From a bacterium (lineage in GTDB: Bacteria; Orphanbacterota; Orphanbacteria; Orphanbacterales; Orphanbacteraceae): DNA of 64,000 bases. The DNA is taken from contig JALGYY010000009.1 of the NCBI GenBank assembly GCA_025782575.1, positions 1-64,000 of the forward strand. Reading direction: 5' to 3'. The notes under the pieces were generated by a model. The model had not been told where the DNA came from. It saw nothing but the letters and a program-made list of their open reading frames with translations, and ran no database searches. This document shows, piece after piece, positions 11,464 through 64,000 of this stretch. How positions within the stretch are numbered: position 1 is the stretch's first letter; each line of letters opens with the position of its first letter. The position numbers and the translations under genes are program-made.

Positions 11464-13410
11464 ATGTCAATAAGTTCAAGCCCGGCAAAAGGTGGGCAGG
11501 CAATTCGTTCAAGGATTCGGCGAGTGGCTGTGAAGACTGACAACAGAGGCGACTATCGCATAACGCTGTTCCTTGTAATCATGCTCGCGTCCGCATCAGT
11601 TCTATATGCCTGGATCCTGCCTCAGCGTTGGATCACCCCGGACGAAGGGGCACACCTGATGGACGGTCGCCGCATCGTTACTGATGGATTGCCTCCGTTC
11701 AGTCTCGGCGCACGTCAGCCGGTTTACTGCTATATACTCGCTGCCTCCCAGCTAATGTTCGGAAATACACTTCTTGCCGGTCGTATCGTCGCGTTGGTCG
11801 CCACAATACTGACCGGAATCCTCCTGTTTTGCATCGGGAGGCGATTCGGCGACGGGGCGGGTCTCATAGCGACTGCCCTGTTCCTGTTCTCTCCATTGAC
11901 GCTGCATTACGCGACGGTCGTTCAAACGCAGCCATTGTCCATCCTGATCTCCTGCCTGATTGTCATGCTCGCGATCTCGAGCAGACGCGGGGCCTTTTTC
12001 GGCGCGGGGTTGCTCATCGGCTTCGGTTTCCTTGTGCGCGAGTCGGTCCTCGCCATCGCACCGGCGATCCTGATCTACATCTTCCTTGTCAGCAGCAGCA
12101 TGCGCTCGGCTCTTCGGTCTGCGTTCACGTTGTTCGCCGGATATGCCGTCGTTTGCGCTCTTGTGCTCACGTTCTATTCAAACTGGTGGGATTTTTCCGA
12201 AGTGTGGAACTCCCGGATCAACCCGCTTTATCTTCCCCAGCAAATAATAGAAAGCGTTCTGGAGCCGGACTCGGGGCGCATGGCGGCGCCGGCCAGAACT
12301 GACTCCGTACCCTCTGACACTCGTTACGGCGCCCGCTCTCTTGCAACAGGCTTCCGTTTCGCGGCGCTTTCGATTGTTCCGGGATTTTGCGCCCTCGCCT
12401 CTATCTTCGGAGGCTGGTGGAGCGGCCGGCGCCGAAAAATCATGGCGCTTCTTGCCGGCTGGATCGCATTTCTAGCAGTCATGTACGGTGGCTGGTCGGG
12501 CGATCACGGTTTTCAGCCGGGATATATGCGCGAGTTCGAACCCCCTTTGGCGATACTCGCGGCGGGTGCCATTGCTCATGCGCTGAGAACGCTATCCCGT
12601 CCATGGTGGTACAGTCCCCTGGCTGTAGCAGGGCTCCTGATAGCGGTTCTCACTCGGGCGAGCAGCTTCCCCGTCTGGCTGGAATCAGTCACTCTTGCGA
12701 TTTACGCCGGGGGGGGGATTCTTTTCGTCGACATTCTACACTCTCGGGATGGTGCCAATCGACTTGTGCTATCTGGCGGTCTCGGATTCGCGCTGCTATT
12801 AATTTTCTTTTCCAGGCGCCCGGGCGGAGTTCTGCATTCGGTGCAAGGTTCCGGTTTGTTGCTTCTCATTGGTGCAATTATTGTTTTCTTGTTGCTTCTC
12901 CTGCGCGTTGGCCGGATTCGAAACCCCGGTTCGCCCCTCTTCCTTGCGGTAACTTTCGCTTCTATTGTGTTCGCGACGATTTCCGCCATTGCGATCGGCG
13001 GATTCAATTTCCATGGGCAATGGCCGCCGGAATCAGGTGCCAGAGTGGCTCAGGTGCTGCGTAACAAGACGCCCGAGACCGGGGAAGTGATGTCAGGAGG
13101 GGTGATCTGGGAGTATCTTGCGGGCCGAAAATCATTCGGCAATCTGAACCACCCGCTCATTTTTCGTGCAATGAACAAAAGCAGATATTTAACCAAGAAG
13201 GTGCTGGAAGCATATGAAGGCAGGCCTCCCGATGCCGTTGTACTCGACGGTTATACTGACAAGACATTCCTTCAGAATCCGGATATAGCCGCAGCCGTTG
13301 CCCGCGAGTATGAACGCTACGATCCGGAGGGCACAAAACTGCCGGTTACTATCCTGCTTCGTCGGAATGAGTCACGAGCCGGGAGCGGACAATTCGATAC
13401 TTCCCGTTAG
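11464..13410 (+). CDS. ArnT/PMT-like membrane glycosyltransferase
   Basis: A 648-residue polytopic protein with about 12 hydrophobic helices. The first external loop carries ITPDEGAHL (Asp60-Glu61), the acidic pair that in GT39/GT83-type enzymes such as ArnT forms the active site. A C-terminal soluble segment follows the last helix (about 520-648), also family-like. Such enzymes transfer sugars from polyprenyl-phosphate donors outside the cytoplasmic membrane, to lipid A, proteins or glycans. Substrate unknown. Its 3' end overlaps the convergent PaaK-like gene by 62 bases. Confidence 0.82.
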   Translation: MSISSSPAKGGQAIRSRIRRVAVKTDNRGDYRITLFLVIMLASASVLYAWILPQRWITPDEGAHLMDGRRIVTDGLPPFSLGARQPVYCYILAASQLMFGNTLLAGRIVALVATILTGILLFCIGRRFGDGAGLIATALFLFSPLTLHYATVVQTQPLSILISCLIVMLAISSRRGAFFGAGLLIGFGFLVRESVLAIAPAILIYIFLVSSSMRSALRSAFTLFAGYAVVCALVLTFYSNWWDFSEVWNSRINPLYLPQQIIESVLEPDSGRMAAPARTDSVPSDTRYGARSLATGFRFAALSIVPGFCALASIFGGWWSGRRRKIMALLAGWIAFLAVMYGGWSGDHGFQPGYMREFEPPLAILAAGAIAHALRTLSRPWWYSPLAVAGLLIAVLTRASSFPVWLESVTLAIYAGGGILFVDILHSRDGANRLVLSGGLGFALLLIFFSRRPGGVLHSVQGSGLLLLIGAIIVFLLLLLRVGRIRNPGSPLFLAVTFASIVFATISAIAIGGFNFHGQWPPESGARVAQVLRNKTPETGEVMSGGVIWEYLAGRKSFGNLNHPLIFRAMNKSRYLTKKVLEAYEGRPPDAVVLDGYTDKTFLQNPDIAAAVAREYERYDPEGTKLPVTILLRRNESRAGSGQFDTSR

Positions 13411-14620
13411 ATTCGGGAGGGATTTTGTCGACAGGTACTACTGCAAGTCTCAATCCCGGCAGGAGAGGCGTGATTGTATTAAGAATCATCTCCTTCAATG
13501 AATCGTCATAACTGTCGACGGGAACAACACACACAACCACACAGGTGCGATCGTCTTGAATAAGTTGGAACTGGGCGATCCCCTGCAGCTCTTCCAGCGG
13601 ATTGATCAGGGTGTAGGGGGAGATGAGCGAGCCGTCCGGCAGAACGAAGTATTCCACGCTCCGTCCGAAACCGGGGGCCATGAGAGGGAGGGAACGCCCA
13701 CAGGAGCACGACTTCTCCAGCATGCGGCCCGTGTCTCCGATTTGATACCGGATCATCGGCATTCCGTAATTGTAAAGGGAGGTAACAAGGAGAACCCTGT
13801 CTGCATCGTCACCGCTGGTGAGCCGATCGCCCGTCTCCAGCAGAAGCCAGTCGCTGTTCAGATGGTAACCTTCCCCCCGAGGGCACTCCCAAGCGATTTC
13901 TTTCACCTCCGTGCTGCCGTAGACGTCGTACACCGGGGCGCGAAAAGCCTCCTGAATGATTCTCCTCGTCTCGCTGTTCAGCATTTCCCCGGATGTGATG
14001 ACCATGGTCGGCCTTAGAAAATCGCCTCCTTTTTCAGCCAGCATTCGAAAGTGCCCCGGGAACCCATATAGTACATGAGGCTTGTACGATCTCAGGCGAG
14101 GCAGGATCTTCTCGATCGGATCGAGCGCTGAAAAAGATATCTGCCGCTTGATCAGGCGCCTTACGGGACTGTTCCGGAAACCGGTGGCCTGGAAGAGAGC
14201 GATCCTGTGCCAGGGACGTACGCCACACGCGAAGCGCGCCCTCGCTTTCAAAAGCGTTTTCCCAATGATCCACGCTTCCGGATCAAAGAAGGTCTCGACA
14301 CTCTGGCCGGTTGATCCTGAAGAGAAAGACCGGTGCATCTTATCGGGATCCGCGCCATCGACGACAAGCTCCCGAGCATTTCGGAGATCTTCCCGCTTAG
14401 TAATGGGCAGGTGCCGCAGGTCTTCACGGCACCGGATATCATGCGGTGAAATTCCTGCGGCCGCAAATTTCTTCCGATAAAAGGGGGAATTTCGAGTGGC
14501 ATGATGGAGGAGCCGCTGGAAGCGTTGCCACTGCAGGCTGTCGAGCTCTTCCCTGGAACGCCGCTGATCACTGTTGATAGCGGGAAGGTATTTGAACAGG
14601 GTTCGGGCACTTCGAACCAT
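13349..14620 (-). CDS. PaaK/CapK-like AMP-forming ligase
   Basis: A 423-residue adenylating enzyme of the phenylacetate-CoA ligase group. Motifs: phosphate loop SFSSGSTGQSVETF (about residue 97-110), the VYDVYGSTEVKEIAWEC region, and MPMIRYQIGDTG with the hinge Asp, followed by a CSCGRSLPLM zinc-knuckle-like stretch and a small C-terminal lid ending SNGKYRIVRS. The family activates carboxylic acids as acyl-adenylates and often passes them to CoA; CapK members occur in capsule clusters. It starts 87 bases after the TonB receptor gene on the same strand and may be the last gene of that unit. Confidence 0.82.
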   Translation of the reverse strand: MVRSARTLFKYLPAINSDQRRSREELDSLQWQRFQRLLHHATRNSPFYRKKFAAAGISPHDIRCREDLRHLPITKREDLRNARELVVDGADPDKMHRSFSSGSTGQSVETFFDPEAWIIGKTLLKARARFACGVRPWHRIALFQATGFRNSPVRRLIKRQISFSALDPIEKILPRLRSYKPHVLYGFPGHFRMLAEKGGDFLRPTMVITSGEMLNSETRRIIQEAFRAPVYDVYGSTEVKEIAWECPRGEGYHLNSDWLLLETGDRLTSGDDADRVLLVTSLYNYGMPMIRYQIGDTGRMLEKSCSCGRSLPLMAPGFGRSVEYFVLPDGSLISPYTLINPLEELQGIAQFQLIQDDRTCVVVCVVPVDSYDDSLKEMILNTITPLLPGLRLAVVPVDKIPPESNGKYRIVRSRLVTHSDEAG

Positions 14621-50597: not shown

Positions 50598-50795
50598 CTT
50601 CTTCTTGCAGGATGCGGACGTGCTCAGTCGATCTTTCAAGAATGCGTCATCAGATGCGAGAGGGTTTCCGCCGCAACCACAATGACCTTCCACGCCCGGC
50701 GGCCCGGGATCCTTGCCGGCGATCCACTTCTGGAAGAGCACCCAGGCGCCGCAGAGAAACGCCACGCCGCCCACCGCGATCAGATGCCTGATCAT
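50586..50795 (-). CDS. small Cys-rich membrane protein at end of rnf operon
   Basis: A 69-residue protein whose ATG overlaps the rnfA stop (ATGA). One membrane helix (LIAVGGVAFLCGAWVLF) is followed by HCGCGG and a later Cys near a basic tail. Position and layout (one helix plus a Cys cluster at the end of an Rnf/Nqr-type operon) parallel NqrM, the small protein needed for iron-site assembly in Na+-NQR, although the sequence is not clearly homologous. A maturation or electron-transfer role in the Rnf complex is a reasonable guess. Confidence 0.6.
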   Translation of the reverse strand: MIRHLIAVGGVAFLCGAWVLFQKWIAGKDPGPPGVEGHCGCGGNPLASDDAFLKDRLSTSASCKKKPRR

Positions 50796-51370
50796 GTGCT
50801 GCTGAACAGGCCGGCAAAACCCATGAAGGCCATGGAGAGTATGCCGGCGATTATGAGGTTCATGGCCGTCCCTTTTACGGCGGCGGGGATGTCGGAGAGC
50901 TCAGCTTCTACTCTTAGTCCCGCCATCAGGACGAGTGCGAGAGTGAGTCCTGCACCGGCGCCGACCGCGAAAAAAATCCCCTCGACGAATGAGTAGGCCC
51001 GGTTGGTCTGGAAAAGGGCGAGGCCTAGAATGGCGCAGTTCGTCGTAATCAGAGGCAGGAAAATGCCGAGTGCCCTGAAGAGCGCCGGACTCAGTTTTTT
51101 GATTACCATCTCGACAAACTGCACCGTGCTCGCAATCACGACGATAAAGCTGATGAGCTGCAGATAAGGTGCATGGGGCAACACGAATGTGTTCAGTACC
51201 CAGGCGCATGTCGATGTGATGAGAAGCACGAACAGATTAGCGAGGCCAAGCCGAAATGCCGTATCAATCCGGCCCGAAACACCGAAGAAAGGACAGAGTC
51301 CCAGAAAATAGTAAAGGGTGAAATTGTTGATCACCATGGCGCTGATAAAAATCCAGACGAGTTGATTCAT
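50792..51370 (-). CDS. rnfA: Rnf complex subunit RnfA
   Basis: A 192-residue, six-helix inner-membrane subunit homologous to NqrE and RnfE. Typical N-terminus: FISAMVINNFTLYYFLGLCP. The conserved Cys here and in a later helix (TTNCAILGLALF) help bind the intramembrane iron-sulfur centre shared by RnfA and RnfE. Overlaps rnfE by one base. Part of the ferredoxin:NAD-type ion-pumping complex. Confidence 0.95.
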   Translation of the reverse strand: MNQLVWIFISAMVINNFTLYYFLGLCPFFGVSGRIDTAFRLGLANLFVLLITSTCAWVLNTFVLPHAPYLQLISFIVVIASTVQFVEMVIKKLSPALFRALGIFLPLITTNCAILGLALFQTNRAYSFVEGIFFAVGAGAGLTLALVLMAGLRVEAELSDIPAAVKGTAMNLIIAGILSMAFMGFAGLFSST

Positions 51371-52011
51371 CAGGCGGCCTTTCTGGCAGTCTCACTCGGG
51401 CGTTTGGCCCGGGCCTGTTTGATGGCGCCGAAGAGGAGCAGGATGAGACCGAGCATGATGAAGCCGCCGGGGGGAAGTACCATGATCACCCACGGTTCAT
51501 AGTTCGGGCCGAAGAGCGGGAAGCCGAAGAACGATCCATTGCCGACGATCTCCCTGGCGCTCCCAAGGCAGAATAGTGCGAACAAGAATCCGGCAGACAT
51601 TCCCATTGCATCTGCCAGCGCCATTCCGACCGTGTTTCTGGATGCAAAAGCTTCCTGGCGGCCGAGGATCAGGCAGTTGACGACGATCAGAGAAATAAAC
51701 GCGCCGAGTTCTTTGTGGAGCGCCGGCGCGAACGCTTTCAGTGTGAAGTCCGCCAGCGTTACGAACGTGGCGATCACGATAATATAAGTGGAAATCCGGA
51801 CCTGTTTGGGGATCACGTTCCGGAGGAGGGAGATCAGCAGACTGGAGCCGAGCAGGACGAACATCGTCGCCCCACCCATGGCGAGGGCGTTGATGGCGCT
51901 GTTCGTGACCGCCAGCATGGGGCACATTCCGAGCACCTGGACAAAAACAGGATTCTCTTTCCAGAGGCCCTTGGCAAATTCGGCGTAGGCTTGTGAACTA
52001 TCCTTCGCCAA
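51370..52011 (-). CDS. rnfE: Rnf complex subunit RnfE
   Basis: A 213-residue, six-helix subunit related to NqrD. The family start NPVFVQVLGMCPMLAVTNSA and the later LIVVNCLILGRQEAFAS carry the two Cys of the membrane iron-sulfur site. TTG start, placed just after the rnfG stop (TGAGTTG), with GGGAGG upstream. Confidence 0.94.
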   Translation of the reverse strand: MAKDSSQAYAEFAKGLWKENPVFVQVLGMCPMLAVTNSAINALAMGGATMFVLLGSSLLISLLRNVIPKQVRISTYIIVIATFVTLADFTLKAFAPALHKELGAFISLIVVNCLILGRQEAFASRNTVGMALADAMGMSAGFLFALFCLGSAREIVGNGSFFGFPLFGPNYEPWVIMVLPPGGFIMLGLILLLFGAIKQARAKRPSETARKAA

Positions 52012-52012: not shown

Positions 52013-52636
52013 TCAACCTCCCTCGATCAGCGGGAGCCATTCCCGGCTCGCTTCATTGATGATCTTGACTACGGCGCGGGATGAAATCGTCGCTCCCGTG
52101 ATGGCGTCTACTTCGTTCGGCGCGGCACCGGTTCCATTCGGTACGAGCACGACCTCCGGTTTCGCGGCGAGTTCACGAAATTCGGCTACGAAATCGGCGT
52201 CTTTGAAAATCTTGTCACCCAGTCCCGGCGTCTCCCGGCTCTCCAGAATCTGCATGCCCGTCAGATTGCCTGACTTGGGATCGTAGCCGAACAGCAGATC
52301 GATGAAATCCTGAAACCCGATCCCTCTTCCCGGAATCGCATAGCCGATAATCTCACCCGACTCGTTTGTTGCGGCATAGATGCCCGCTTCTTCGCTCTCT
52401 TCGGGCGCTTCGGTAAGCCGGTCGTTTGAAACGACCATTCTTTTCATGTCCGCCGCCCCTGGAACGACTTCGAAGACCGCCCGGCGAAGTGCCCGGCGCT
52501 GATTCTCTTTGATTCGGGGGAGGGTCGCTTCATAGACGGCTGCCAATGCGAGCCCGGAAAGCAGGCCGGCGAGCGTGAGGGTAAGCACCATCTTAACGAG
52601 GCTCACATCCGCCTGCTTCGGAACCGGCCGGCTCAT
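52013..52636 (-). CDS. rnfG: Rnf complex subunit RnfG (covalent FMN)
   Basis: A 207-residue protein with an N-terminal anchor helix (MVLTLTLAGLLSGLALAAVY) and a periplasm-facing FMN-binding domain. The flavinylation motif VDAITGATISS (about residue 180) supplies the Thr that takes FMN covalently through ApbE. ETPGLGDKI is also typical. ATG overlaps the rnfD stop by 4 bases. Confidence 0.94.
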   Translation of the reverse strand: MSRPVPKQADVSLVKMVLTLTLAGLLSGLALAAVYEATLPRIKENQRRALRRAVFEVVPGAADMKRMVVSNDRLTEAPEESEEAGIYAATNESGEIIGYAIPGRGIGFQDFIDLLFGYDPKSGNLTGMQILESRETPGLGDKIFKDADFVAEFRELAAKPEVVLVPNGTGAAPNEVDAITGATISSRAVVKIINEASREWLPLIEGG

Positions 52637-53655
52637 GATTTCTCCCTGCGTGGTCTGCCGAAGACGCGGGGTTGCACCGCTTTATCAATGAGAGGCGTGG
52701 CGGCATTCATGAGAAGAATCGAATACATCACCCCTTCCGGGAAGCCGCCGAAAACGCGGATCAGTACGACCAGAAAACCGATACCGGCACCGAAGATCCA
52801 CGCTCCCCGCGGACTTAGTGGAGAGGTGACCGGATCGGTCGCCATGAAGACCGCCCCGAGCAGGAGGCCGCCCGACAGAATCATGAAGTGGGGCGGGGGG
52901 TAGGCGCTCGGGCTGACGAGATAAAGAATTCCGGCGAAAGCGGCTGTCGAAGCGAGGATCGCTACGGGAATTCTCCAGTCATATGTTCGCCTGAGGCCGA
53001 GCCAGAGACCGGCGAAGATCAGAATCAGTGCACTCGTTTCGCCGAGAGACCCGCCTGTGCTCCCGAACAGCAGATTCTGGAACGGCGTCGATTCTCCTGA
53101 GAATTTCATGAGCGCCAGCGGCGTTGCCGATGAGACGGCGTCCACGTCCATGTGCATGAACGGGGCGGCGAGAGTAGCCCCCCGTACCTGAAAGAACTGG
53201 CCGATTCCACCATAGGGAGCCCAGGTGGTGAGAGCGGTCGGGAAAGCCGCCTGAAGAAACGCCCGTCCGACGAGCGCGGGATTAAACAGGTTGTGGCCGA
53301 GTCCGCCCCAGACGAGTTTCCCGAGGCCCATTCCGACCAGACCGCCGACGACCGCCATCCAGAGAGGGAGACCGGGCGGGAGTGTGAGGCCGAGAAGCAC
53401 ACCCGTGAGCGCGGCGCTGCCATCCTTCAGTGAATGGCCCCGCTTGCCGTAGGGGGGAAAGAGCCACTCGGTACCCATGGCACCCGCCGTAGCCGCGGCG
53501 ATCACCAGAATGGCGCTCACGCCGAAGTACCAGACTGCTGCGAGTACGACGGGCGCCAGACCGAGAAGCACATCCCGCATCAATTTAGATGTAGTCAGTT
53601 CCCGGCGCAGAAAAGGCGCCGCCTCGAGAATAAGACCCGGTTCCCGTCCGATCAT
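52633..53655 (-). CDS. rnfD: Rnf complex subunit RnfD (covalent FMN)
   Basis: A 340-residue membrane subunit related to NqrB. VDAVSSATPLALMKFSGE near residue 175 holds the Thr for a second covalent FMN. GLGHNLFNPALVGRAFLQAA and FMATDPVTSPLSPRGAWIFG are family signatures. Overlaps rnfC by 4 bases. Together with RnfG it carries electrons coupled to ion pumping. Confidence 0.94.
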   Translation of the reverse strand: MIGREPGLILEAAPFLRRELTTSKLMRDVLLGLAPVVLAAVWYFGVSAILVIAAATAGAMGTEWLFPPYGKRGHSLKDGSAALTGVLLGLTLPPGLPLWMAVVGGLVGMGLGKLVWGGLGHNLFNPALVGRAFLQAAFPTALTTWAPYGGIGQFFQVRGATLAAPFMHMDVDAVSSATPLALMKFSGESTPFQNLLFGSTGGSLGETSALILIFAGLWLGLRRTYDWRIPVAILASTAAFAGILYLVSPSAYPPPHFMILSGGLLLGAVFMATDPVTSPLSPRGAWIFGAGIGFLVVLIRVFGGFPEGVMYSILLMNAATPLIDKAVQPRVFGRPRREKS

Positions 53656-54986
53656 TTCTTTCTGTTCTTCTTTCTAATAGCGGATTTGGCTACGCGGATG
53701 AGCTGCACGATCGGGATGTTTGACGGGCATGTGTACGTGCAGGATCCGCATTCAATACAATCCATTACAAAGTACTCTTCGATTTCGTCCCATCGCTCGG
53801 CGTGCGCCAGTCTTCCGAAACGGGACGGATTCAAGAACGCCGGGCACGCCTCGAGGCACCGGCTGCATTTCACGCATGTGAATTCGGGGAGCCTGGATTG
53901 CTCCGCTTTCGTGAATACCAGAAGGCCGCTCGTCCCTTTAAGAACCGGTACGTCGATACTCATGAGGGGGAGGCCCATCATCGGGCCGCCGGCGATCACT
54001 TCACGCATGTGTTCCGTTATTGCTTCGCAGTGACTGAGCAAGGCCCGGATCGGCGTACCGATCGGGACGAGCAGATTGGCCGGCTGGCCGGTACCGGGGC
54101 CCGAGACCGTAACGATCCGCTCGATAAGCGGAATGCCGTGATCGAAGTAGTCGGCGATCGCCGCCATCGTCGCGACGTTGTTTACGATTACCCCGACATC
54201 GAGGGGGAGTTTGCCAGAGGGGACTTCGAGATCGAAGAGCGCCTTGATGAGCATTTTTTCAGCACCTTGCGGATACTTGACGCGAAGAGGGGCGACCTCG
54301 ATGTCTGTCCGGTCGCCGATCACTTTCTGGAGCGCCTTCACACCATCGGGCTTGTTCTTCTCCACCCCGATCACGGTCTTCGTCGCCCCGATCTTGGCTG
54401 CGAGAATTTCGGAGCCTCTCACAACACGCGCCGCCTCTTCGACCATCAGGCGGTGATCGGCTGTCAGGAAGGGTTCACACTCACATCCGTTAACGACGAG
54501 AGTCTCGATCTTCTTTCCGTCCGGCAATTTATATTTGACATGTGATGGGAAAGCCGCACCGCCCATCCCGACGAGCCCCGCCTCCTGCACGTGGGTGACG
54601 AACTCATCGATCGTGAGCGATTCCCAGTCGATCGGTGGCTGGTCGGGGAGGAGCTGGGGATCGTACGGATCGGCATCGATCACGATCGACTCGAGCATCC
54701 TGCCGTCCGGATGACGGCGTGGTTCGATCGCACGTACTGTTCCCGTCACCGGACTGTGAAGCGCGGTCGAAACATATCCTCCCGGCCGGGCGATCTTCTG
54801 ACCCCGGCGGACCGCCTCTCCCTTTCGCACGATCGATTGGGAAGGCGCCCCCAGATTCTGGCTGAGCGGGAGTACATAAGTCGCCACGAACGGTACGCGC
54901 TCGATTCGGAGCTCCGCAGTCTGTTCTTTATGATCGTCGGGATGGATCCCGTGTCGAAAACTGTTCGATCGAATCGTCAGACTCAA
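53652..54986 (-). CDS. rnfC: Rnf complex subunit RnfC
   Basis: A 444-residue membrane-associated subunit related to NqrF/Nuo51. Biotinyl-like N-terminal region (ALHSPVTGTVRAIE), Nuo51-like FMN/NADH-binding fold with GLVGMGGAAFPSHVKYKL and NGCECEPFLTADHRLM, SLBB segment, and two 4Fe-4S motifs: CVKCSRCLEACP (about 368) and CIECGSCTYTCP (about 407). It is the NAD(H) site of the complex. Overlaps the PFOR-like stop by 4 bases. Confidence 0.95.
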   Translation of the reverse strand: MSLTIRSNSFRHGIHPDDHKEQTAELRIERVPFVATYVLPLSQNLGAPSQSIVRKGEAVRRGQKIARPGGYVSTALHSPVTGTVRAIEPRRHPDGRMLESIVIDADPYDPQLLPDQPPIDWESLTIDEFVTHVQEAGLVGMGGAAFPSHVKYKLPDGKKIETLVVNGCECEPFLTADHRLMVEEAARVVRGSEILAAKIGATKTVIGVEKNKPDGVKALQKVIGDRTDIEVAPLRVKYPQGAEKMLIKALFDLEVPSGKLPLDVGVIVNNVATMAAIADYFDHGIPLIERIVTVSGPGTGQPANLLVPIGTPIRALLSHCEAITEHMREVIAGGPMMGLPLMSIDVPVLKGTSGLLVFTKAEQSRLPEFTCVKCSRCLEACPAFLNPSRFGRLAHAERWDEIEEYFVMDCIECGSCTYTCPSNIPIVQLIRVAKSAIRKKNRKK

Positions 54987-57900
54987 CTGGTTGCTCCGTT
55001 GTCGTTTGCGGCCGGTGTTTGACCGGCCAGCTGGACCAGCCTGTTCCGCAGCCTGTCAAGCATTTCGGACCGGGCCTTCTCATCGGCGGCTTGAATCTTC
55101 GCTTCGTATTCCCGTTTGAGCGAGGCGATTTCTCCCTTGTGCCTCGCGGCGATATCGCTCTCCGCTTCTTCGCGAACCCTCTCGGTGAACGGTGTCACCA
55201 CGCCCGCGATCTCCTGGAGAGTGCGCCAGATCTGGAGACGGTTATCGGCAAGATCGACCACCGTGGCCGGAACATGCCATGTGTCCGTCGGAAGATCAGA
55301 TCGATCATGCAGACGGAGCACAGGTACTTTTCCGGCGCGGTCACTATTGGATAGCATGATGAACTCACCGAGATCGATCGCTTCCCCGTCAGACTGTTCG
55401 AATGGCCTGAAGCCTCCGGCGAAACGGGCTTCGGTAAAGGCCCAGTGCGCCGGCGTCATGAGATCACCCGATTCTTCGCGAACCCAGCTCTCCTGCTCTG
55501 CCGGATTTCCGGTTAGATCGACCCGCACGCCGAACACGCCGCCGTCCGATGGATCGTAGCGGAAAAGAGGGAACGACCGTGTGCGAACGGCGATTTCCGC
55601 CTGCTTGACGGCGCCGTCGGTTGCGAAGCCGTGGCGCTCGGGATCAGGCGCGTGCACATGAATGAGCGCCGGGCCGTCGAACTGGACGGCGTCGGCCATG
55701 CCGGTCGCGAAGTGATCCCGATGGGCGATCGAAGTCTTCAGTACGAACGCCCTCCGCGCGGCAAGCGCGAGAAGTGCGAGATCCGATGCAGCCGGAATCG
55801 CCCGATCCACATCGATCGCCGGCGCGCCGAGCACGACGACTTTGACCGGGAGATCGGTTCCGAGGAGAGCGAGCAGAGAATCGAATCCGTCGTTCCGCAG
55901 GTCCTCTTCATCCAGCAGTACGAGAAGCGGCGCTACTTCGGGAAGGGGGGGGGGCTTGGGCGCTGCTGGTCTTATGCCGCGCGATCGTCCTCGCCTGGCC
56001 GCCCTCACCGGGTCTTTCACAATCTCCGCCGCTTCATCTACAAAGCGCCACTCTTCCGCGGCAATTCGCCTGTTGCTTTCGGCAAGCCCGCGCGCGACAC
56101 TCCCCGCTCGTTCAGCGCTTACTACCGACACGGGGATTGAGAACGGATTGTCCGGGAATCTTCCTGCCCAGGCGGCCACACGATGGCCGGCGAGGAGAAG
56201 TCCGAACGGCGCTCTCGGAATCCCTTCGATTCCCTTCTCCAGTCGCCAGCGTGTCTCGGCAAGTCCCCGCGCCGTATCGACGAGCTTCTGCAGTGCCAGA
56301 CCGTCCACGGTGCCGGCATCCGACGCACTCTCGATCCGGGCAGCCAGACTGGACAGATCGAAGTTGCTCTGGCCGATCGCTTCGATCCCTTCGGCCATCA
56401 CATCGAGCTGATCTGTCGGGAGGGCTTTGTACAGTGTCTCTCTGATTTTTTCGGAAAATCGGGCCTGCAGATCGGCGATCCGATCGATCTTCTCGGTGCG
56501 GGCGGCCCCCAGAACGGCAGCCGCCGATGCGAGGGCATGTCGAAGCGCGATCGCGCCGCCGCTTCCGGGCGTCGAGTGATCGCCGCTGATCATCGTATGA
56601 CGATATCGCCTGGAAAGCATGGTCGCCGCTACAAATCCCGGTTCATCCGCTTTACGAATCTCTGCAATCACGGCAGTCGGAGTTTCGGGAACGCGCGCCA
56701 CCTGGTCATGTTTCCGGCGTGCCTCGATTATCCGTTCGGCTGAGTCAGGTTGCAGCCGAAGTGCTCCCGGATCACAGACGGATGTGCAAACTCCGCAGCC
56801 CTTGCAGGCGGAGGGATCGATTCCGAGGAACAGCAGGTTGCCGGTCCCTTTGGAAGAGGCTTCAGGTGCAGTCCAGAGATGCTCGGTAACCGCCGCCGGA
56901 AGAATGTTCACGGTTTCGGCTACAGCCGAGGCTGCCTCCTCGAGAGATTGCCGGCGATCTTCCTGAAACTTCGTTTTTGCAATGATCTTATTGAACGCTT
57001 CCTGAATCGCCGCCCCCACCGTGGGCGCGGCCTCCTCGCCTGCGAGCTCCTTCATCATGCCGGGAGCGAGTTTGGCGGCGATCATGCGGAGCGAGTCAAC
57101 AGCGCGGCCCGCGGCTTTCGCTTCGCTCATCGCATGGTCCAGCACGGCGGACGGTTTCTGTGCGGCCACCGTGATCGCGCCATGGGGGCAGAAGGTCCAG
57201 CAGTTTCCGCAGCCCGTGCAGAGCGCGGTGTCGAAAGCCGGCATCGTCTCACGGGATGCCGACGTGTCATGAAATACAGCTGACATGGATGGAACGACGC
57301 CGAGCGTATGGGCCGGGTCGGGCGAAATCTCGTCTTCACCGGCATACGACGGACGGAACATGGTTTCATCGATGAACCGTGGAAGGCTCCGGAATGAATT
57401 GTCTTCACGCCCGAGTCCCCGAACCCATGGTGGGGCCGGAGCCGGCCCGGGAGCAGGCGACCGTTCCACTACGATCTTCTCGACCGTTTGTGCCGAGCCG
57501 AGGCCTCGGGTAAACGCCTCTGCCATCTCCGTCTGAAGCGAGTCTCCGAGCCCGCGGTTCAGATCCGCCAGTGCTCCGGTCAGTCGATTCGTATCGATAC
57601 TTCGGGAAATCATTTGAAGAGTGCTGAAGAGGGCACCGAGTAGGAACGGTTCGCGACTCTCTCTGGATTCGCCGGACGTGTCGGCCCGAAAAAATCGCAC
57701 TTCTCTGTCCAGGCTGATTTTGGCGGTGATGCGATCGAGTGGGAGGATGTCGTCAACGAGCGCGCCGCCGATGGGGAGAAGAACCGCCCCTCCCCGGATG
57801 ACGTTGCCGACCGCCCCCGCAGCCGCCCCTTTCGGACTCGCGACAAGCAGGAGGTCGGCGGCTCTGTCGTCACCGGGATCGCGAAGCGTTTCATCACCGA

Positions 57901-59434
57901 AAGCGATCGTGTGCAGACTGTAGGGCGCCCACTCATATCGGCCTGACCCCGCGCGGTATCGAACGCTGCCGCCCCGGGCACGATGGATGAGCTCGGCCGC
58001 GCGGGTGGCGAGCCTGTCTCCACTCCCGTCCAGAGATAGAATCGAGATGACCGTCGATCCATCGGGTCGGGACGTTACGCTCTTGTCTAACGCGGTGATT
58101 CCCGTTTTCTCCACGCCGGGAAACGCCTTCCTGACCTGGTCGACTCTCCCCTGTCGTTTGGGGTACTTCCCTGTATCGGCGGCGAAATCAATGCCCAGAT
58201 AGAACGGGCCGGAGCCACGCTTTTCAATCGACCGTATCAACTCGATCAGATCGGCCTGGCGTAGCGGCAGGCCACCGAGGCCGTAGATAGCGGAGTGAAT
58301 CCGCGGCATATCCCTGGCGCGCCAGCCGCGACGGTCACCCTTCGAGCCGTCGCCATGACGCTCGAGTTCAAGCGCTCGCTGTGCTGCTCCTCGAATCGCC
58401 TGCGTCAGGGAGGGTTCCTGCGACAGCGGTGAATCCGAAGGTTCGAGCACGACCACATGCTGCTTTCCTCGAAGGAGATCAGCAAGCTGAGCACCTGGGA
58501 ACGGCCGGACCGCATGAATGCCGGCGACTCCTGTTTTCTGTTTGATGGAACGAAGATGGGTAGCGGCGGCTTCCGCCACTTCCAGAGCGGCACCCCGGGC
58601 TACGATCACGAGCTGCGCATCTTTCAACTTTTCGATGGAGATCGCCTGAACGGGACGATCGAAAAACCGGCTCACTTCCTCGAAGGCGCCGGCAAGAACG
58701 GACTCGAATGGATCGAAAACGAAAGGACGTCTGCCGGATTCCCCATGACCGCCGAGGTCCGTCGCCTGGGAAGCGGCGATCAGCACGGGCACATCGGGGT
58801 CGAACCACCGGGGGACGCGGCGCCGGTTCGGGCCGAAGAGGAGTTTCTGCTCCGCAGTTGGTGATACGATCTTGTCTTCTGCGGTGCCGAGCAGTGTATC
58901 CACTTCAGCCGCCGCCGGAAGCTTCACATCCTGGAGAGCCGTTCCGGTGGCGTCTCCATCGATCAGAACGACGACGGGGAGGAGAGCATTCTCGGCTGCC
59001 AATCGGGCGACGAGATTCAAGTCGAACACATCCTGCACATTTCCCGCATGCAGCACGACGGCACCGGCATCGGCTGAGAGCGCACTGTCGAAACGGTCGC
59101 CCGATGGAGCGTTTCCACGGGTGGAAGTGATCGCATTGATGACGATCGGGAGCCGGCGATGAGCAGCCTGGCGCCACACATGAAGGACCTCGGCCGATCG
59201 GGCGTTCTCCAGCAGGACCGTTACACGCGTACCACCGAGTGCGGCTCCGATCGCACGGTCGCCGTCGATGTACAGCCCCTGATCGGTATCGGGGCCGTTG
59301 TTCCCTGCCGCGAGAGCGTGAGCCAATCGGAGCGCTTCCTGACCGCTCGACAGAACGGCATGGCTCGAAGCCCCCCCGCCGGGACGTCTTCTCATTTCAT
59401 GGAGCTCTGCAAGTAACTCATTGACCGTGTGCAT
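54983..59434 (-). CDS. giant PFOR-like iron-sulfur protein (1483 residues) within rnf operon
   Basis: Domain order follows pyruvate:ferredoxin oxidoreductase (usually about 1200 residues) but is divergent. N-terminal pyrimidine-binding-like domain (about 1-250), domain II (about 270-370), gamma-like domain (about 410-570), two 4Fe-4S motifs CTGCGNCWTFCP (about 738) and CKGCGVCTSVCDPG (about 875) separated by a long helical insert, then a region like the PFOR TPP domain ending PALIHVHAPDPERHGF and SFPLFRYDP (about 1289), and a coiled-coil tail. The GDG...N TPP motif and Cys ligands of true PFOR are not seen, so it is probably not a complete 2-oxoacid oxidase. AAAGGA before ATG 59434 sets the start, 7 bases after rnfB. 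Likely an electron-transfer or scaffolding protein between KorAB and Rnf (inference). Confidence 0.72.
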   Translation of the reverse strand: MHTVNELLAELHEMRRRPGGGASSHAVLSSGQEALRLAHALAAGNNGPDTDQGLYIDGDRAIGAALGGTRVTVLLENARSAEVLHVWRQAAHRRLPIVINAITSTRGNAPSGDRFDSALSADAGAVVLHAGNVQDVFDLNLVARLAAENALLPVVVLIDGDATGTALQDVKLPAAAEVDTLLGTAEDKIVSPTAEQKLLFGPNRRRVPRWFDPDVPVLIAASQATDLGGHGESGRRPFVFDPFESVLAGAFEEVSRFFDRPVQAISIEKLKDAQLVIVARGAALEVAEAAATHLRSIKQKTGVAGIHAVRPFPGAQLADLLRGKQHVVVLEPSDSPLSQEPSLTQAIRGAAQRALELERHGDGSKGDRRGWRARDMPRIHSAIYGLGGLPLRQADLIELIRSIEKRGSGPFYLGIDFAADTGKYPKRQGRVDQVRKAFPGVEKTGITALDKSVTSRPDGSTVISILSLDGSGDRLATRAAELIHRARGGSVRYRAGSGRYEWAPYSLHTIAFGDETLRDPGDDRAADLLLVASPKGAAAGAVGNVIRGGAVLLPIGGALVDDILPLDRITAKISLDREVRFFRADTSGESRESREPFLLGALFSTLQMISRSIDTNRLTGALADLNRGLGDSLQTEMAEAFTRGLGSAQTVEKIVVERSPAPGPAPAPPWVRGLGREDNSFRSLPRFIDETMFRPSYAGEDEISPDPAHTLGVVPSMSAVFHDTSASRETMPAFDTALCTGCGNCWTFCPHGAITVAAQKPSAVLDHAMSEAKAAGRAVDSLRMIAAKLAPGMMKELAGEEAAPTVGAAIQEAFNKIIAKTKFQEDRRQSLEEAASAVAETVNILPAAVTEHLWTAPEASSKGTGNLLFLGIDPSACKGCGVCTSVCDPGALRLQPDSAERIIEARRKHDQVARVPETPTAVIAEIRKADEPGFVAATMLSRRYRHTMISGDHSTPGSGGAIALRHALASAAAVLGAARTEKIDRIADLQARFSEKIRETLYKALPTDQLDVMAEGIEAIGQSNFDLSSLAARIESASDAGTVDGLALQKLVDTARGLAETRWRLEKGIEGIPRAPFGLLLAGHRVAAWAGRFPDNPFSIPVSVVSAERAGSVARGLAESNRRIAAEEWRFVDEAAEIVKDPVRAARRGRSRGIRPAAPKPPPLPEVAPLLVLLDEEDLRNDGFDSLLALLGTDLPVKVVVLGAPAIDVDRAIPAASDLALLALAARRAFVLKTSIAHRDHFATGMADAVQFDGPALIHVHAPDPERHGFATDGAVKQAEIAVRTRSFPLFRYDPSDGGVFGVRVDLTGNPAEQESWVREESGDLMTPAHWAFTEARFAGGFRPFEQSDGEAIDLGEFIMLSNSDRAGKVPVLRLHDRSDLPTDTWHVPATVVDLADNRLQIWRTLQEIAGVVTPFTERVREEAESDIAARHKGEIASLKREYEAKIQAADEKARSEMLDRLRNRLVQLAGQTPAANDNGATS

Positions 59435-59441
59435 CGATCCT

Positions 59442-60269
59442 TTACCCTTCGACGGTCCCTTCGAACTGTCCGTCAGGTACCCATTGGATGGCTCCCGTGG
59501 GACAGCGGAACGTGGCATTCGGCGCCGCGAGATCGGTCCGGGCATACTCGATCACCGGCAGGTTATTGTCCATAACGATCAGCCCGTCATCCGCGTCCAT
59601 GGCGCAACGCCCGCAGGCATCGCAAGCTACCGTGCAGAGGTTTGTGGCGTCCTCGCCTGCCAGGGGGGAGGCGCACTGAACGAGCAGCGGCATGGTCATC
59701 GGGACAAGCTCGAAAATATCCCTCGGGCATGCTTCCACGCAGTCGCCGCAGGCCGTACAAAGATCGGGGTCCACCACCGGGAGCCCGTTGCTGTTCATTC
59801 GAATCGCGTCGAAATCGCAGGCCACATCACAGTCGGCGAGGCCGAGGCAGCCCCAGGGACATCCTTTGCCTCCGCTCCCGACAACTGCAGCGGCGCGGCA
59901 GCTCGTAAATCCTTCGTATTCGGCGATCTGCTTCGCCTGGGCGCGACCGCCGGCGCAGTGAAGCCGGGCGACGATCTTGACTCTGGCTCCGGCTTCGACG
60001 CCGAGAAACCCGGCCACTCGATCTACATTCTCGGGACTCGAGACGGTGCAGCCGCTTGGCGCCGATTCTCCGCCGATCAATGATTCGGCAAAGGCGCGGC
60101 ATCCTGGCGATCCGCACGCGCCGCAGTTCGTCCCCGGCAACATATCGACAAGGGGCTCGAGCCGTGGATCTTCGTAGACACGGAGAAACTTGTATGCCAC
60201 TGCCAGAATTACGCCGAAAAGAGTGGCCAACCCTCCCATGATTGCGGCGGAGAGAAGCACGTCGTTCAC
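59442..60269 (-). CDS. rnfB: Rnf complex subunit RnfB
   Basis: A 275-residue electron-entry subunit. N-terminal anchor (AAIMGGLATLFGVILAVAYK), then the 4Fe-4S domain LPGTNCGACGSPGCRAFAES (about 44), and ferredoxin modules: KGCPWGCLGLADCDVACDF, LCTACGDCVEACPRDIF (about 169), CTVACDACGRCAM and CPTGAIQW. It takes electrons from ferredoxin. GTG 60269 is chosen because GAGGAG lies just upstream. Its position between two PFOR-like genes, away from rnfA, is unusual; in clostridia rnfB is the last gene. Confidence 0.95.
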   Translation of the reverse strand: MNDVLLSAAIMGGLATLFGVILAVAYKFLRVYEDPRLEPLVDMLPGTNCGACGSPGCRAFAESLIGGESAPSGCTVSSPENVDRVAGFLGVEAGARVKIVARLHCAGGRAQAKQIAEYEGFTSCRAAAVVGSGGKGCPWGCLGLADCDVACDFDAIRMNSNGLPVVDPDLCTACGDCVEACPRDIFELVPMTMPLLVQCASPLAGEDATNLCTVACDACGRCAMDADDGLIVMDNNLPVIEYARTDLAAPNATFRCPTGAIQWVPDGQFEGTVEG

Positions 60270-60283
60270 CGGGATCGACTCCT

Positions 60284-62521
60284 CTACTGGTACCGCTCGG
60301 CGCGCGTGACCCACTCATCCAGATTCGGTTCCTTCGGGTCGAATGGTTGACCCGGATGGATGCAGTCGGCCGGACAGCCTTCGGCGGCCAGCACGATCTC
60401 GCGGTAGAGGCCACCACGGGGGTCGCCGATGATGACCTGGTTGTTGTCGTCGTAAACGAAGATCTTCGCGTTAATATTGACGCAGTCGTTGCAGCTCGTA
60501 CAGAGGGCCGTTTCCACCCAGGGCTCCTCGGAGAATTCTTCGTCCTCTTCCTCGGCGGCAGCTGGGGCGGGGGCGGCTGCTTCGGCCGTTGCTTCGGCTG
60601 CCGGGGGAGGAACTGCTGCCGGTGAGGGAGCGGCTGGGGCGGGAGCAGTGGACGTCGCGGCTCCTCCGGCCAATTCTGTCGCCAGATCAAGACCGAGCAG
60701 TGACTGCGCCAGTCCTGCCATCGCCTTTTCCGTCGTCTCTTCCCTTACTTTTGTGATCTCGTCTTCGTGGCGGAGCTGAGTACGATCCCTTTCTGCGGCC
60801 GCTTCATTGTGCGCTTCCTGAACTGCTTTTTCGACCGCTTCCCGTACATACTCGCTCTTGATTCCGGCGAGCTCCTGAAGTGTTCGCCAGTAATCGAGCC
60901 GATCCCGGCAGGCCATCGCCAATGTGCGGGTCACTGCGAGAAGGACCGGACCGTTCTCCCCTACAGCCCGAATGTAAGGAATCTTGTGGATCGAAGATTC
61001 TTTATCGAGGTCCAGATATTCGGCGAGTGGGGCGAGGTACTTCTTCGATACGCCATCCTGAAGAGGGAGAAAATCGGCCTTTCGAATCTTCCGGAGAAGG
61101 GCGAAGTCGGCCAGTGTGAAGACTTCTTTCTCTCCGGTCTTCTGATCTCCGTCATCCGGATCGGCCAGGTCGAAAAGCGGCCAGTCCTGTTCCGGCTGAG
61201 GATTATCAGTGAAGTCCATCCGCCTTGCCCATGACGTACCGGCTGCCGGATCGTACCGGAAGAAAGGATGGGACCGTGAAGCGAGTCCGCCGTCGGCGTA
61301 GAGCACCAGGTCGTTCTCTGCATCGCCGACCATTCGTTCGGTCATGTGCAGAGCGGGGAGAATCCCGTCCAGCGCCTGCAGAAAACCTTTCAGCAAGTGC
61401 TTGGGATAGGTAGGTGAGGACTGCTGCACGAATGCGTTCCGGTGAGAAAGACCGAAATAGCCGAGCTCGATTGAACTCTTGCCCGGATCACGCTCCGAAA
61501 GATAGCCTGCCGGGTCGACCGAAGCGATCACATGAATCGGTTTGGATGACGCAAGGAGACAGGAGAGTGTGTGGATTCCGTCCCCCTGAAGACGGTCCGC
61601 GTTTTCTATGGCTACCACTACCGGCAGAAGGGCGAGTTCCCCGGCCGTAAAGACCGAAGGGCCGAACTGCCGAAACCAGATCTCATGACGATCCGCTCGA
61701 TAGCGCCCTTCCGCTTCGAGCCGTGCCATACGAACAGCCAGGAAGAGGGGAGTATGATCGTTCGCCATCCGGTCGAACTCGGCGACTGCCTGTGTGCAGG
61801 GATCGTCGTTCTGTACGAATCGGCTCCCCGGATCATTCTCCCCCTTGGCAGGAGAGAACGAATGATCATGCACGACGACCAGCTCAGATTGCGTGTCGAG
61901 GGCGAGATGAGCTTCCATGGTGGCCAGCGCCGATTCAAGCCGCTCCCGACGTTCGGTCGCCATCGCAACGGAGCCCCGCCGCTCGCCGAAAAGCTCGGAG
62001 AGTGCGGTCGGGTCCATGAACTGCGATCCTGTGGCGCCTACCGTCTGGCTGAGGTGCTCCGGTGCACGAGCTTCCGGCCTTTTCAGACGATCCACCTCGA
62101 GCATGCCCCGAAGGGCGGTGCAGAGCTCTCCCAGTTCCACGCGGAACGGGGTGCGCCTCGCCGCGAGCCGGCTCTTGACCGCCGCACGAAAAATATGAAG
62201 AGCGCTCTGATCGTTCAGATCGATTACAAAAGCATGATCCGATGCCGCGAGACCCTTGTCCGGATCGACGCTCTGGATGATGGAATCGCTCTCCCCGGGA
62301 ACAAGTAGCAGCGGATAGGGGCTGCGCTTTTCCTGGCCAGACAGGCCGGGAAGTGCGGCGGGCAGATACGCGCCCCCGTCACCGCTATTCAGAGCGGCGT
62401 CGGATGAGCCTTCGAAGTGGAAACGTCGCAGGAGATGAATGTACTCCCGCTGATCGACTTTCGGTGCGGGTTCAGGGTTCGGTCCGGGCGCTTCGCCTTT
62501 GGTCATCGTTCCGTTCTCCAT
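60284..62521 (-). CDS. PFOR-like protein with C-terminal ferredoxin domain (745 residues)
   Basis: The central part (about 230-520) resembles the PFOR TPP-domain region: AFVQQSSPTYPKHLLKGFLQ, then ALDGILPALHMTE and SHPFFRYDPAAGTS (about 418). The segment DRLDYWRTLQELAGIKSEYV parallels the tail of the 1483-residue protein (QIWRTLQEIAGV), so the two are paralogous here. An Ala/Pro/Glu-rich linker (about 625-662) leads to a ferredoxin-like end: CTSCNDCVNINAKIFVYDD (about 673) and AAEGCPADCIHPG, one 4Fe-4S site. No complete TPP motif seen. It lies between korB and rnfB and is a good candidate for a dedicated electron carrier. An ATG at 62506 is an alternative start. Confidence 0.72.
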   Translation of the reverse strand: MENGTMTKGEAPGPNPEPAPKVDQREYIHLLRRFHFEGSSDAALNSGDGGAYLPAALPGLSGQEKRSPYPLLLVPGESDSIIQSVDPDKGLAASDHAFVIDLNDQSALHIFRAAVKSRLAARRTPFRVELGELCTALRGMLEVDRLKRPEARAPEHLSQTVGATGSQFMDPTALSELFGERRGSVAMATERRERLESALATMEAHLALDTQSELVVVHDHSFSPAKGENDPGSRFVQNDDPCTQAVAEFDRMANDHTPLFLAVRMARLEAEGRYRADRHEIWFRQFGPSVFTAGELALLPVVVAIENADRLQGDGIHTLSCLLASSKPIHVIASVDPAGYLSERDPGKSSIELGYFGLSHRNAFVQQSSPTYPKHLLKGFLQALDGILPALHMTERMVGDAENDLVLYADGGLASRSHPFFRYDPAAGTSWARRMDFTDNPQPEQDWPLFDLADPDDGDQKTGEKEVFTLADFALLRKIRKADFLPLQDGVSKKYLAPLAEYLDLDKESSIHKIPYIRAVGENGPVLLAVTRTLAMACRDRLDYWRTLQELAGIKSEYVREAVEKAVQEAHNEAAAERDRTQLRHEDEITKVREETTEKAMAGLAQSLLGLDLATELAGGAATSTAPAPAAPSPAAVPPPAAEATAEAAAPAPAAAEEEDEEFSEEPWVETALCTSCNDCVNINAKIFVYDDNNQVIIGDPRGGLYREIVLAAEGCPADCIHPGQPFDPKEPNLDEWVTRAERYQ

Positions 62522-62525: not shown

Positions 62526-63479
62526 TCAGATCGCGAATCGGGCGATCTCTTCGCGGACCGCCTTCAGTTTGTCACCGGCATCCATGTCGAGACCATGGTT
62601 CGTGAATTCATCGTATATAACCGTATTCGGATCATGGAACAGGAGGCCGATCGCCAGCTTCCCTTCGAGGGTCGAAAGATCACGAGCTCCGGTCATATCC
62701 GAGGGATCGTGCACTACTTTGTTCTTGAACTTCTTCTCTACTGCCGGCTCCACCTCGATCCCGTTCTCGTGGGTAAGCAGGATGAGCCTGGTCGGATCGT
62801 TAATAATAGGGTCAAAAAGATTCGGCGTAAATGTGGGGCATCGCTGCATGATTCGCACGAAGCTGAGCCCTTTGTGTTGGTAGGCCGCGTTCAACGTGGC
62901 GTAGAGATGGGGCGGGTTCCAGTCAACCGTCTGAGCTACGAACGATACATTTGTGAACCCGAGCGTCGCCAGTGTCGGGTTCAAAGGGGGTAACCATGTT
63001 CCGGATGGGTGCGTACTCGTTACCAATCCCTGGGGGCTCGTAGGTGAGGACTGATTCTTGGTAAGGCCGTAGACGTTATTGTCGAAGAGCATGACCGTGA
63101 TGTTCATGTTATATCGAATCGCGTGAATCCAGTGGCCGGCGCCGATCGAACAGCAATCGCCGTCACCGGTGGCGACCCAGATGTCCAGGTCAGGTCTTCG
63201 GGCCTTGATGCCGCATGCCACGGGAAGAGCTCTCCCATGGAGCCCGTGGAATCCATATGTGTTCATATAATGAGGGAAACGACTCGAACAGCCGATTCCA
63301 GAGACGGCGACCATCTTCTCCGGCGGAATCTGATTGTCCCGGCAGATTCGCTTCACAGCGGATAGAACAGCGAAGTCACCACATCCGGGGCACCATCGCG
63401 CTTCGCCGCCGTCATAATCCTCGATCGTGTACTGATTGGGAGGAAGCTCCTGAATCCAATCGGCTTCTTTCTTGATCAT
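62526..63479 (-). CDS. korB: 2-oxoacid:ferredoxin oxidoreductase beta subunit
   Basis: A 317-residue TPP- and iron-sulfur-binding subunit. RWCPGCGDFAVLSAVKR and SGIGCSSRFPHYMNTYGFHG carry cluster Cys; WVATGDGDCCSIGAGHWIHA starts the GDG...N TPP motif (ending LFDNNVYGLTKNQSSPTS). It matches the two-subunit KorAB/OFOR enzymes that cleave 2-oxoglutarate or pyruvate with CoA and reduce ferredoxin. Substrate not fixed by sequence alone. ATG overlaps the korA stop (ATGA). Confidence 0.94.
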   Translation of the reverse strand: MIKKEADWIQELPPNQYTIEDYDGGEARWCPGCGDFAVLSAVKRICRDNQIPPEKMVAVSGIGCSSRFPHYMNTYGFHGLHGRALPVACGIKARRPDLDIWVATGDGDCCSIGAGHWIHAIRYNMNITVMLFDNNVYGLTKNQSSPTSPQGLVTSTHPSGTWLPPLNPTLATLGFTNVSFVAQTVDWNPPHLYATLNAAYQHKGLSFVRIMQRCPTFTPNLFDPIINDPTRLILLTHENGIEVEPAVEKKFKNKVVHDPSDMTGARDLSTLEGKLAIGLLFHDPNTVIYDEFTNHGLDMDAGDKLKAVREEIARFAI

Positions 63480-64000
63480 TTTACTTCCCCTCCGTTGGTA
63501 CTATCGAGCCTGCCGATGATCTCGTCGTAGATATCTCTCGGATGGAGTGGTTGTCCGTGCACGTTCGACCAGCAGTCCACATCGCAAAGGGTTCGAGATC
63601 GAATTAAACGGGCGAGCTGGGCTCGTCTGCGATTCTCGACCGTTACAAGGGGATCATCCGCCGGATCGCTGTAGTTGATCTCGACTGTCATGACATGGTT
63701 GAAGCGGGCGAATATCTCGCTGAGCCCCGGCTCGAGAGGGGACAGGAATCGAAGGTGAAGGGAAGAAACTTTGCGGCCGTCCGCCTGCAGATTCGCCACA
63801 GCCTCATCAATGGCGCCGAGAGTTGATCCCCAACCGATGACCAGAAGATCCCCTTCGGGCTCCCCGTTTATTACAGGGGTTCGAAGGGTCGACTGGAACG
63901 ACGCGAGCTTCCGGCTTCTCATCGTGCAGCCGAACTGATTCGCCTCGGGTTCATAGGCGACCTTGCTCTCTTCGGTATGTGCGAGGCCGGTAAGTACGTA
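63476..64000 (-). CDS. korA: 2-oxoacid:ferredoxin oxidoreductase alpha subunit, 5' end outside window
   Basis: Only the last 174 codons are in the window; the frame is open to the right edge (YVLTGLAHTEESKVAYEP). This is the C-terminal domain II of fused gamma-alpha subunits of KorA type: LLVIGWGSTLGAIDEAV, LHLRFLSPLEPGLSEIF and VMTVEINYSDPADDPL, then a C-terminal region interacting with beta. It is the first visible gene of the kor-rnf operon. Confidence 0.93.
   Translation of the reverse strand, partial: YVLTGLAHTEESKVAYEPEANQFGCTMRSRKLASFQSTLRTPVINGEPEGDLLVIGWGSTLGAIDEAVANLQADGRKVSSLHLRFLSPLEPGLSEIFARFNHVMTVEINYSDPADDPLVTVENRRRAQLARLIRSRTLCDVDCWSNVHGQPLHPRDIYDEIIGRLDSTNGGEVK

Follow-up and report, generated by a model that had tools for sequence, protein, structure and literature searches.

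Paired pyruvate:ferredoxin oxidoreductase paralogues without a thiamine site in an rnf operon, and their probable role in coupling KorAB to the Rnf complex

The DNA analyzed here (the window) is a stretch of 64,000 nucleotides from a bacterium of the small phylum Orphanbacterota (assembly GCA_025782575.1, contig JALGYY010000009.1, positions 1 to 64,000). It carries an operon in which the genes of a 2-oxoacid:acceptor oxidoreductase (KorAB) and of the Rnf complex are joined by genes for two relatives of pyruvate:ferredoxin oxidoreductase (PFOR), proteins of 745 and 1483 residues named P745 and P1483. Both have lost the catalytic thiamine pyrophosphate (TPP) site and retain ferredoxin-type 4Fe-4S cluster ligands, and we consider it probable that these catalytically dead paralogues couple KorAB to the Rnf complex. 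In the proposed mechanism, P745 would serve KorAB as a dedicated ferredoxin subunit that docks through its dead domain VI and exchanges electrons with the KorB cluster via its own C-terminal cluster. P1483, encoded in the slot held by a catalytic PFOR in other rnf operons, would bind RnfB and dock P745 there. Its two clusters would normally relay electrons between P745 and RnfB, and matching C-terminal helices probably hold the two proteins together.

The question addressed is the low-potential electron route to or from 2-oxoacid:ferredoxin oxidoreductases in respiring bacteria, for example tubeworm and clam symbionts with genes of the reductive tricarboxylic acid (TCA) cycle. A dedicated KorAB–Rnf bridge, if true, would answer part of that question and provide a concrete complex to purify. 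It would also illustrate clearly the conversion of an enzyme into a coupling device, with a catalytic relative that still occupies the corresponding operon slot in other genomes. Homologues of the pair, though unable to catalyze, are likely to be listed as PFOR or ferredoxin, and such annotations would mislead metabolic reconstructions. No description of a PFOR/Rnf pseudoenzyme or of the korA-rnfB cluster was found in open-licence papers.

Loss of the catalytic site and retention of cluster ligands

An earlier sequence-only reading of the window had described two open reading frames (ORFs) flanking rnfB as apparently TPP-less products of a PFOR duplication, redeployed as electron conduits or scaffolds. 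Both ORFs lie on the minus strand where that reading placed them, with rnfB in between. Their features are as follows:

60284..62521, minus strand: P745, 745 residues; TPP-less PFOR domain VI, tail and C-terminal single-cluster ferredoxin domain (Fer4_13, E 2e-7)
60374..60502, minus strand: ferredoxin cluster cysteines of P745 (C674, C677, C680, C716), all four kept in 57/58 homologues
60698..60859, minus strand: long helical tail of P745, residues 555–608 (a single helix, 557–608, in the model), present only in P745 of the P1483-associated (Rnf) type
54983..59434, minus strand: P1483, 1483 residues from the ATG at 59434; TPP-less PFOR domains I–VI and tail (POR_N, PFOR_II, Fer4); a longer reading of 1520 residues from 59545 would overlap rnfB
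57188..57220, minus strand: P1483 cluster motif A, CTGCGNCWTFC (C739–C749)
56774..56806, minus strand: P1483 cluster motif B, CKGCGVCTSVC (C877–C887)
55904..55912, minus strand: degenerate TPP motif of P1483, DEE (1175–1177) in place of GDG, with the downstream VYSNTGG loop gone, by profile alignment
55028..55186, minus strand: C-terminal long helix of P1483, residues 1417–1469 (helix 728–780 of the model), not found in the catalytic rnf-operon relatives

The residues that bind TPP and the proximal cluster were counted in 33 homologues of P1483 and 58 of P745, with the catalytic PFORs of other rnf operons (called P1640) as a reference in which 12–13 of 13 members keep the TPP residues. The domain I threonine (of YPITP), the domain I glutamate, and the loop asparagine and threonine are each absent from all 33 P1483 proteins. 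The aspartate of the GDG motif is present in 14 of the 33 and is followed by glycine in at most three, and the four cysteines of the proximal cluster are kept in 0, 1, 0, and 0. Among the 58 P745 proteins, the aspartate is found in four and the final threonine in none, and the proximal-cluster cysteines are kept in 0, 18, 0, and 0. The absence of the GDG...N motif and of the catalytic-domain cysteines, first read from the two window proteins, thus holds for both families. No homologue of either protein has the complete TPP site that would have spoken against that reading. The single-chain PFOR model TIGR02176 gives P1483 72.8 bits against a cut-off of 911.35 and does not match P745.

The ferredoxin-type clusters are retained. 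P1483 contains a ferredoxin-like domain for two 4Fe-4S clusters, which is not present in P745, and each of its eight cysteines is found in 31–33 of the 33 homologues. The count of two four-cysteine motifs in P1483 and one in P745 given by the sequence-only reading is borne out.

Structure models compared with PFOR, as that reading had suggested, show the PFOR domain V/VI fold in both proteins. AlphaFold models cover the whole of P745 and residues 690–1483 of P1483, the N-terminal half of which is described by profiles. The P745 model (AF2 pLDDT 83.7) matches PFOR domain VI (7plm) over residues 68–554 with Z 22.5 (294 residues, 4.8 Å), and the P1483 model (pLDDT 81.2) matches PFOR 6cin with Z 32.2 (430 residues, 3.8 Å). 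The closest solved structure to the C-terminal domain of P745 is Desulfovibrio africanus ferredoxin I (1fxr, TMt 0.84).

These data bear on two alternatives to electron coupling. The proteins could still be enzymes, acting on another substrate or with another cofactor or forming an active site jointly with KorAB subunits, and the retained domain VI fold and the aspartate in 14 of the 33 P1483 proteins are what this idea can draw on. We regard it as very improbable: the domain I and loop ligands and the proximal-cluster positions are lost, and KorAB has a complete site of its own. The pair could instead form a regulatory pseudoenzyme outside the electron path, which would control KorAB or Rnf in response to a 2-oxoacid, coenzyme A, or the redox state. 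Domains I–III of PFOR are still recognizable in P1483 despite the loss of TPP, but electron transfer is what the kept cluster ligands and P745's ferredoxin domain point to; this domain is retained even where P745 is associated with Nfn. A regulatory role appears improbable.

Ancestry and distribution of the pair

The shared C-terminal region noticed in the sequence-only reading is real, and it is longer than first described. The FRYDP sequence and the WRTLQE block are present in both proteins, and BLASTP aligns residues 1169–1449 of P1483 with residues 300–602 of P745 at 30% identity over 310 columns (E 6e-24). Profile–profile comparison extends the match to 504 columns (E 5e-57), so that the common region takes in the degenerate domain VI in addition to the FRYDP/WRTLQE tail. 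Chance similarity is ruled out by this E value together with synteny across several phyla.

The catalytic relative of the pair is P1640, a PFOR of 1590–1700 residues encoded between rnfB and rnfC in rnf operons without korAB (loci L117, L121, L122, L124–L126, L131, L132, L135, L138, and L148). All its catalytic and cluster motifs are intact: YPITP, GCGE, GGDGxxYDIG, both clusters of the ferredoxin-like domain, and an extra C-terminal ferredoxin. In profile alignments to the L121 protein, P1483 covers residues 13–1504 (E 4e-216) and P745 residues 1002–1650 (E 9e-103), so that the pair spans the whole P1640 chain, with domain VI and the tail represented twice. One candidate P745, at L123, was rejected: the protein contains GDG and CGCGE and is an incomplete P1640. 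Related to this group is a catalytic PFOR encoded by two genes (about 650 and 520–580 residues), present in L042, L043, and L073–L077; genes near it in L042 have sequences suggestive of BcrA/BcrD-type ATPases and HgdB-type subunits.

A phylogeny of the shared region had been proposed as a further check, and a mixture-model tree was built on domain VI and the tail. P745 (support 100/99) and P1483 (100/100) each form one clade, the two clades are each other's closest relatives (100/98), and the next branch to join them is that of the P1640 proteins with ferredoxin (100/99). Catalytic forms without ferredoxin, the split form, and ordinary PFOR fall outside. The pair is sister to P1640 in this tree and nested inside P1640 in a quick tree. 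Since P745 and P1483 are both fast-evolving and liable to long-branch attraction, their sisterhood is less sure than the unity of each clade. An origin from the ordinary PFOR of the genome (on contig C42) was rejected, as this protein keeps all motifs and falls outside the group.

The idea of a duplicated PFOR put to a new use is largely right and fits the tree, the models, and the loss of ligands, although the role itself is inferred. Three refinements apply: instead of a whole PFOR, P745 comprises domain VI, the tail, and a ferredoxin domain; the operon that holds the pair begins with korA and korB; and the pair stems from an rnf-operon PFOR rather than from the ordinary PFOR of the genome. 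Further points go beyond the earlier reading: the probable partner KorAB, encoded just upstream; the ferredoxin domain fused into P745; a catalytic relative in rnf operons elsewhere; and the evidence that roles as scaffold and as conduit are separable.

The pair is kept in Pseudomonadota, Planctomycetota, Bacteroidota, SAR324, and the window's phylum, with clusters and synteny conserved. In the P745 and the P1483 subtree alike, SAR324, Bacteroidota, and one small phylum branch apart from a group made up of Gammaproteobacteria, Planctomycetota, and the window, which is as expected for a co-inherited cassette. In the window's own phylum, the cassette is present in two of seven genomes examined, and another of its genomes (G005) has a P1640-like gene on a short contig with an intact start of domain I. 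In the nearest relative (G001; locus L038, contig C80, about 9698–14143), P1483 is broken by one in-frame TAA into ORFs of 931 and 506 residues, the result of either an assembly error or a decaying gene. At L108 (Thiodiazotropha ex Ustalcina), two ORFs stand in place of each of korA, korB, and P1483, and P745 lacks its ferredoxin motif, which looks like frameshifts or decay.

The long branches and fast evolution of both proteins and the stop codon in the G001 gene might suggest bystanders or decaying PFOR copies that lie in the operon by chance. This explanation is scarcely credible, as it is contradicted by the conservation of the clusters and the synteny of the pair across several phyla.

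Operon partners and co-occurrence

In the window, the ten genes korA-korB-P745-rnfB-P1483-rnfC-rnfD-rnfG-rnfE-rnfA form a single minus-strand run with intergenic gaps of -31 to +7 bases. The remaining genes of the run are as follows:

63476..64000, minus strand: korA, its 5' part outside the window (whole gene C11:63476-65410 on the same contig, 644 residues); gamma-alpha fused 2-oxoacid:acceptor oxidoreductase alpha subunit, POR_N and POR domains; TIGR03710 502 bits, cut-off 482.75
62526..63479, minus strand: korB, 317 residues, catalytic TPP subunit, overlapping korA by 4 bases; PF02775 E 1.9e-26, TIGR02177 E 2.9e-66
59442..60314, minus strand: rnfB, 290 residues as listed; PRK07118-3 E 5e-59, TIGR01944 67.1 bits (cut-off 68.7); a GTG with a ribosome-binding site just past the P745 stop is the likelier start
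53652..54986, minus strand: rnfC, TIGR01945 522 bits, above cut-off
52633..53655, minus strand: rnfD, TIGR01946 317 bits, above cut-off
52013..52636, minus strand: rnfG, TIGR01947 102.5 bits, above cut-off
51370..52011, minus strand: rnfE, TIGR01948 230.5 bits, above cut-off
50792..51370, minus strand: rnfA, TIGR01943 224 bits, slightly below the cut-off of 229

The Rnf set (A, B, C, D, E, and G) is complete in one operon, with the A and B subunits at most 5 bits short of their cut-offs. Assignment of the first two genes to KorAB follows from a KorA score above the TIGR03710 cut-off and from a KorB that, as read from its sequence, has an intact GDG...N motif and four cluster cysteines (CPGC, GIGC, RCP); the TIGR02177 score of KorB is 224 bits, below the cut-off of 262.

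Scanning 84,980 species genomes with the P745 family yielded 75 loci, most of them in metagenome assemblies. The P1640 operons are among these loci, and P745 itself occurs in two arrangements. In the Rnf type, korAB-P745-rnfB-P1483 is mostly followed by rnfCDGEA. The Nfn type, found in Pseudomonadota and one other lineage, has the order nfnA-nfnB-korA-korB-P745 and contains neither rnf nor P1483. The names Nfn, fumarate-reductase-like, and NuoF-like used here were assigned by reading the sequences. Where the flank is long enough, KorB adjoins P745 in 49 of 56 loci, KorB and P745 accompany P1483 in 31/31, and P1483 accompanies Rnf-type P745 in 35/35. P1640 loci contain rnfC in 12 of 13 and KorAB in none of the 13. 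As P745 occurs with NfnAB and KorAB where P1483 is missing, P745 follows KorAB and P1483 follows Rnf. A protein at L151 (Rhodovulum sp. PH10, 6749-10993) that follows nfnA-nfnB resembles P745 without the ferredoxin cysteines, with no korAB between.

The helices follow the same division. All 37 Rnf-type P745 proteins have a helix of some 50 residues in the stretch from the WxxLQE block to the ferredoxin. This helix is missing from all 16 of the Nfn type and from P1640, and a similar helix forms the C-terminus of P1483. If these helices serve to pair P745 with P1483, a tailed P745 without a nearby P1483 should have one elsewhere in its genome. A TPP-less P1483 was found elsewhere in all five such genomes (L079, L080, L081, L085, and L099) at 739–1086 bits. 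None of the 17 Nfn-type genomes, in which P745 is tail-less, contains P1483; their best match is a catalytic P1640 at 562 bits, and the next group scores about 250 bits, with intact GDG in the two proteins checked.

Several observations weigh against the coupling of KorAB to Rnf by the pair. The loci were retrieved by P745 sequence patterns, so the frequencies above are conditional on P745. In the tubeworm symbionts L091, L092, and L094, korAB-P745-rnfB-P1483 occurs without adjoining rnfCDGEA. In the Planctomycetota P1483 genes L082:12857-16945 and L104:12835-17475, the second and third cysteines of both motifs are lost (CDGDGRLWT[ST]C where others have CTGCGxCWTxC) and the operon is retained. 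To judge from these sequences, both clusters have probably been lost, so that conduction by P1483 is not obligatory and scaffolding may suffice there. In a purely scaffolding role, P1483 would only position KorAB-P745 on RnfB, electrons would pass directly from the P745 ferredoxin to RnfB, and the P1483 clusters would be structural. The two intact planctomycetal operons and the near-universal retention of the P745 ferredoxin agree with such a role, but the presence of all eight P1483 cysteines in 31/33 homologues across several phyla indicates strong selection for the clusters elsewhere, and as a general account the scaffold is unlikely. Coupling with electron relay through P1483 is the reading we prefer. 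The data establish the ancestry of the pair, the loss of the site, the kept clusters, the operon, and the co-occurrence; from synteny, co-occurrence, and the helix tails we infer a physical complex and its electron transfer.

Relation to known systems and direction of electron flow

P1483 resembles single-chain PFOR (NifJ; TIGR02176; D. africanus 1b0p, Moorella thermoacetica 6cin) in its fold, domain order, and ferredoxin-like cluster pair, and P745 shares the domain VI fold. Unlike single-chain PFOR, both proteins lack the TPP site and proximal cluster; P1483 has an extra tail, and P745 has only domain VI plus a fused ferredoxin. P1640 is closer, with the same rnfB/rnfC slot as P1483, the same tail, and the same C-terminal ferredoxin, which now resides in P745. 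However, P1640 is catalytic and is found without KorAB, whereas in operons with P745 and P1483 catalysis has moved to KorAB and the chain is divided over two proteins. The KorA and KorB of the operon look ordinary by profile and motif when compared with known KorAB (Magnetococcus 6n2n). Known KorAB uses free ferredoxin, whereas here the ferredoxin is one domain of a large dead-PFOR protein whose gene adjoins korB. The C-terminal domain of P745 has the fold of D. africanus ferredoxin I (1fxr/1dax), a ferredoxin that partners PFOR; in P745, this fold shares a chain with a dead PFOR domain. P745 occurs next to two ferredoxin:NAD(P)H systems, NfnAB and Rnf, and to our knowledge no PFOR-derived adaptor has been described for either.

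The substrate of KorAB is probably 2-oxoglutarate by analogy with related kor clusters, which are termed 2-oxoglutarate enzymes in papers. The reaction is likely to run in the reductive direction in sulfur-oxidizing gammaproteobacteria. Several gammaproteobacteria have genes for a fumarate-reductase-like flavoprotein and a NuoF-like protein ahead of korA, which fits a reductive TCA branch. In a published table, such gammaproteobacterial symbionts are given the entry "Kor and Frd (reductive TCA)" (PMC6593406), and the Escarpia symbiont is reported to have a dimeric korAB co-located with citrate synthase (PMC6315080). When sulfide is limiting, korAB of Endoriftia and a "PFOR-like" gene, possibly P745 or P1483, drop together (PMC11636981). 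The direction may vary from host to host, since most genomes, including that of the window, have a 2-oxoglutarate dehydrogenase E1 (sucA). For the same reason, the presence of sucA was rejected as a discriminator between Rnf and Nfn arrangements.

A more far-reaching and tentative proposal, to which we give somewhat less than even odds, is that KorAB and the dead PFOR pair are assembled with Rnf into a single supercomplex at the membrane, in which low-potential electrons are channeled with no need of free ferredoxin. It might act as an ion-gradient-driven 2-oxoacid synthase for CO2 fixation, which could suit sulfur-oxidizing symbionts, or as an ion-pumping 2-oxoacid dehydrogenase. Such a complex would have arisen by duplication of an rnf-operon PFOR, loss of the catalytic site, and retention of the copies as a coupling device.

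On the window's contig, malate dehydrogenase lies about 4 kb and sucA about 12 kb upstream of korA. The latter, a 2-oxoglutarate dehydrogenase E1 at G000:C11:77398-79725, is outside the window, and two different 2-oxoglutarate-type enzymes may thus be encoded close together.

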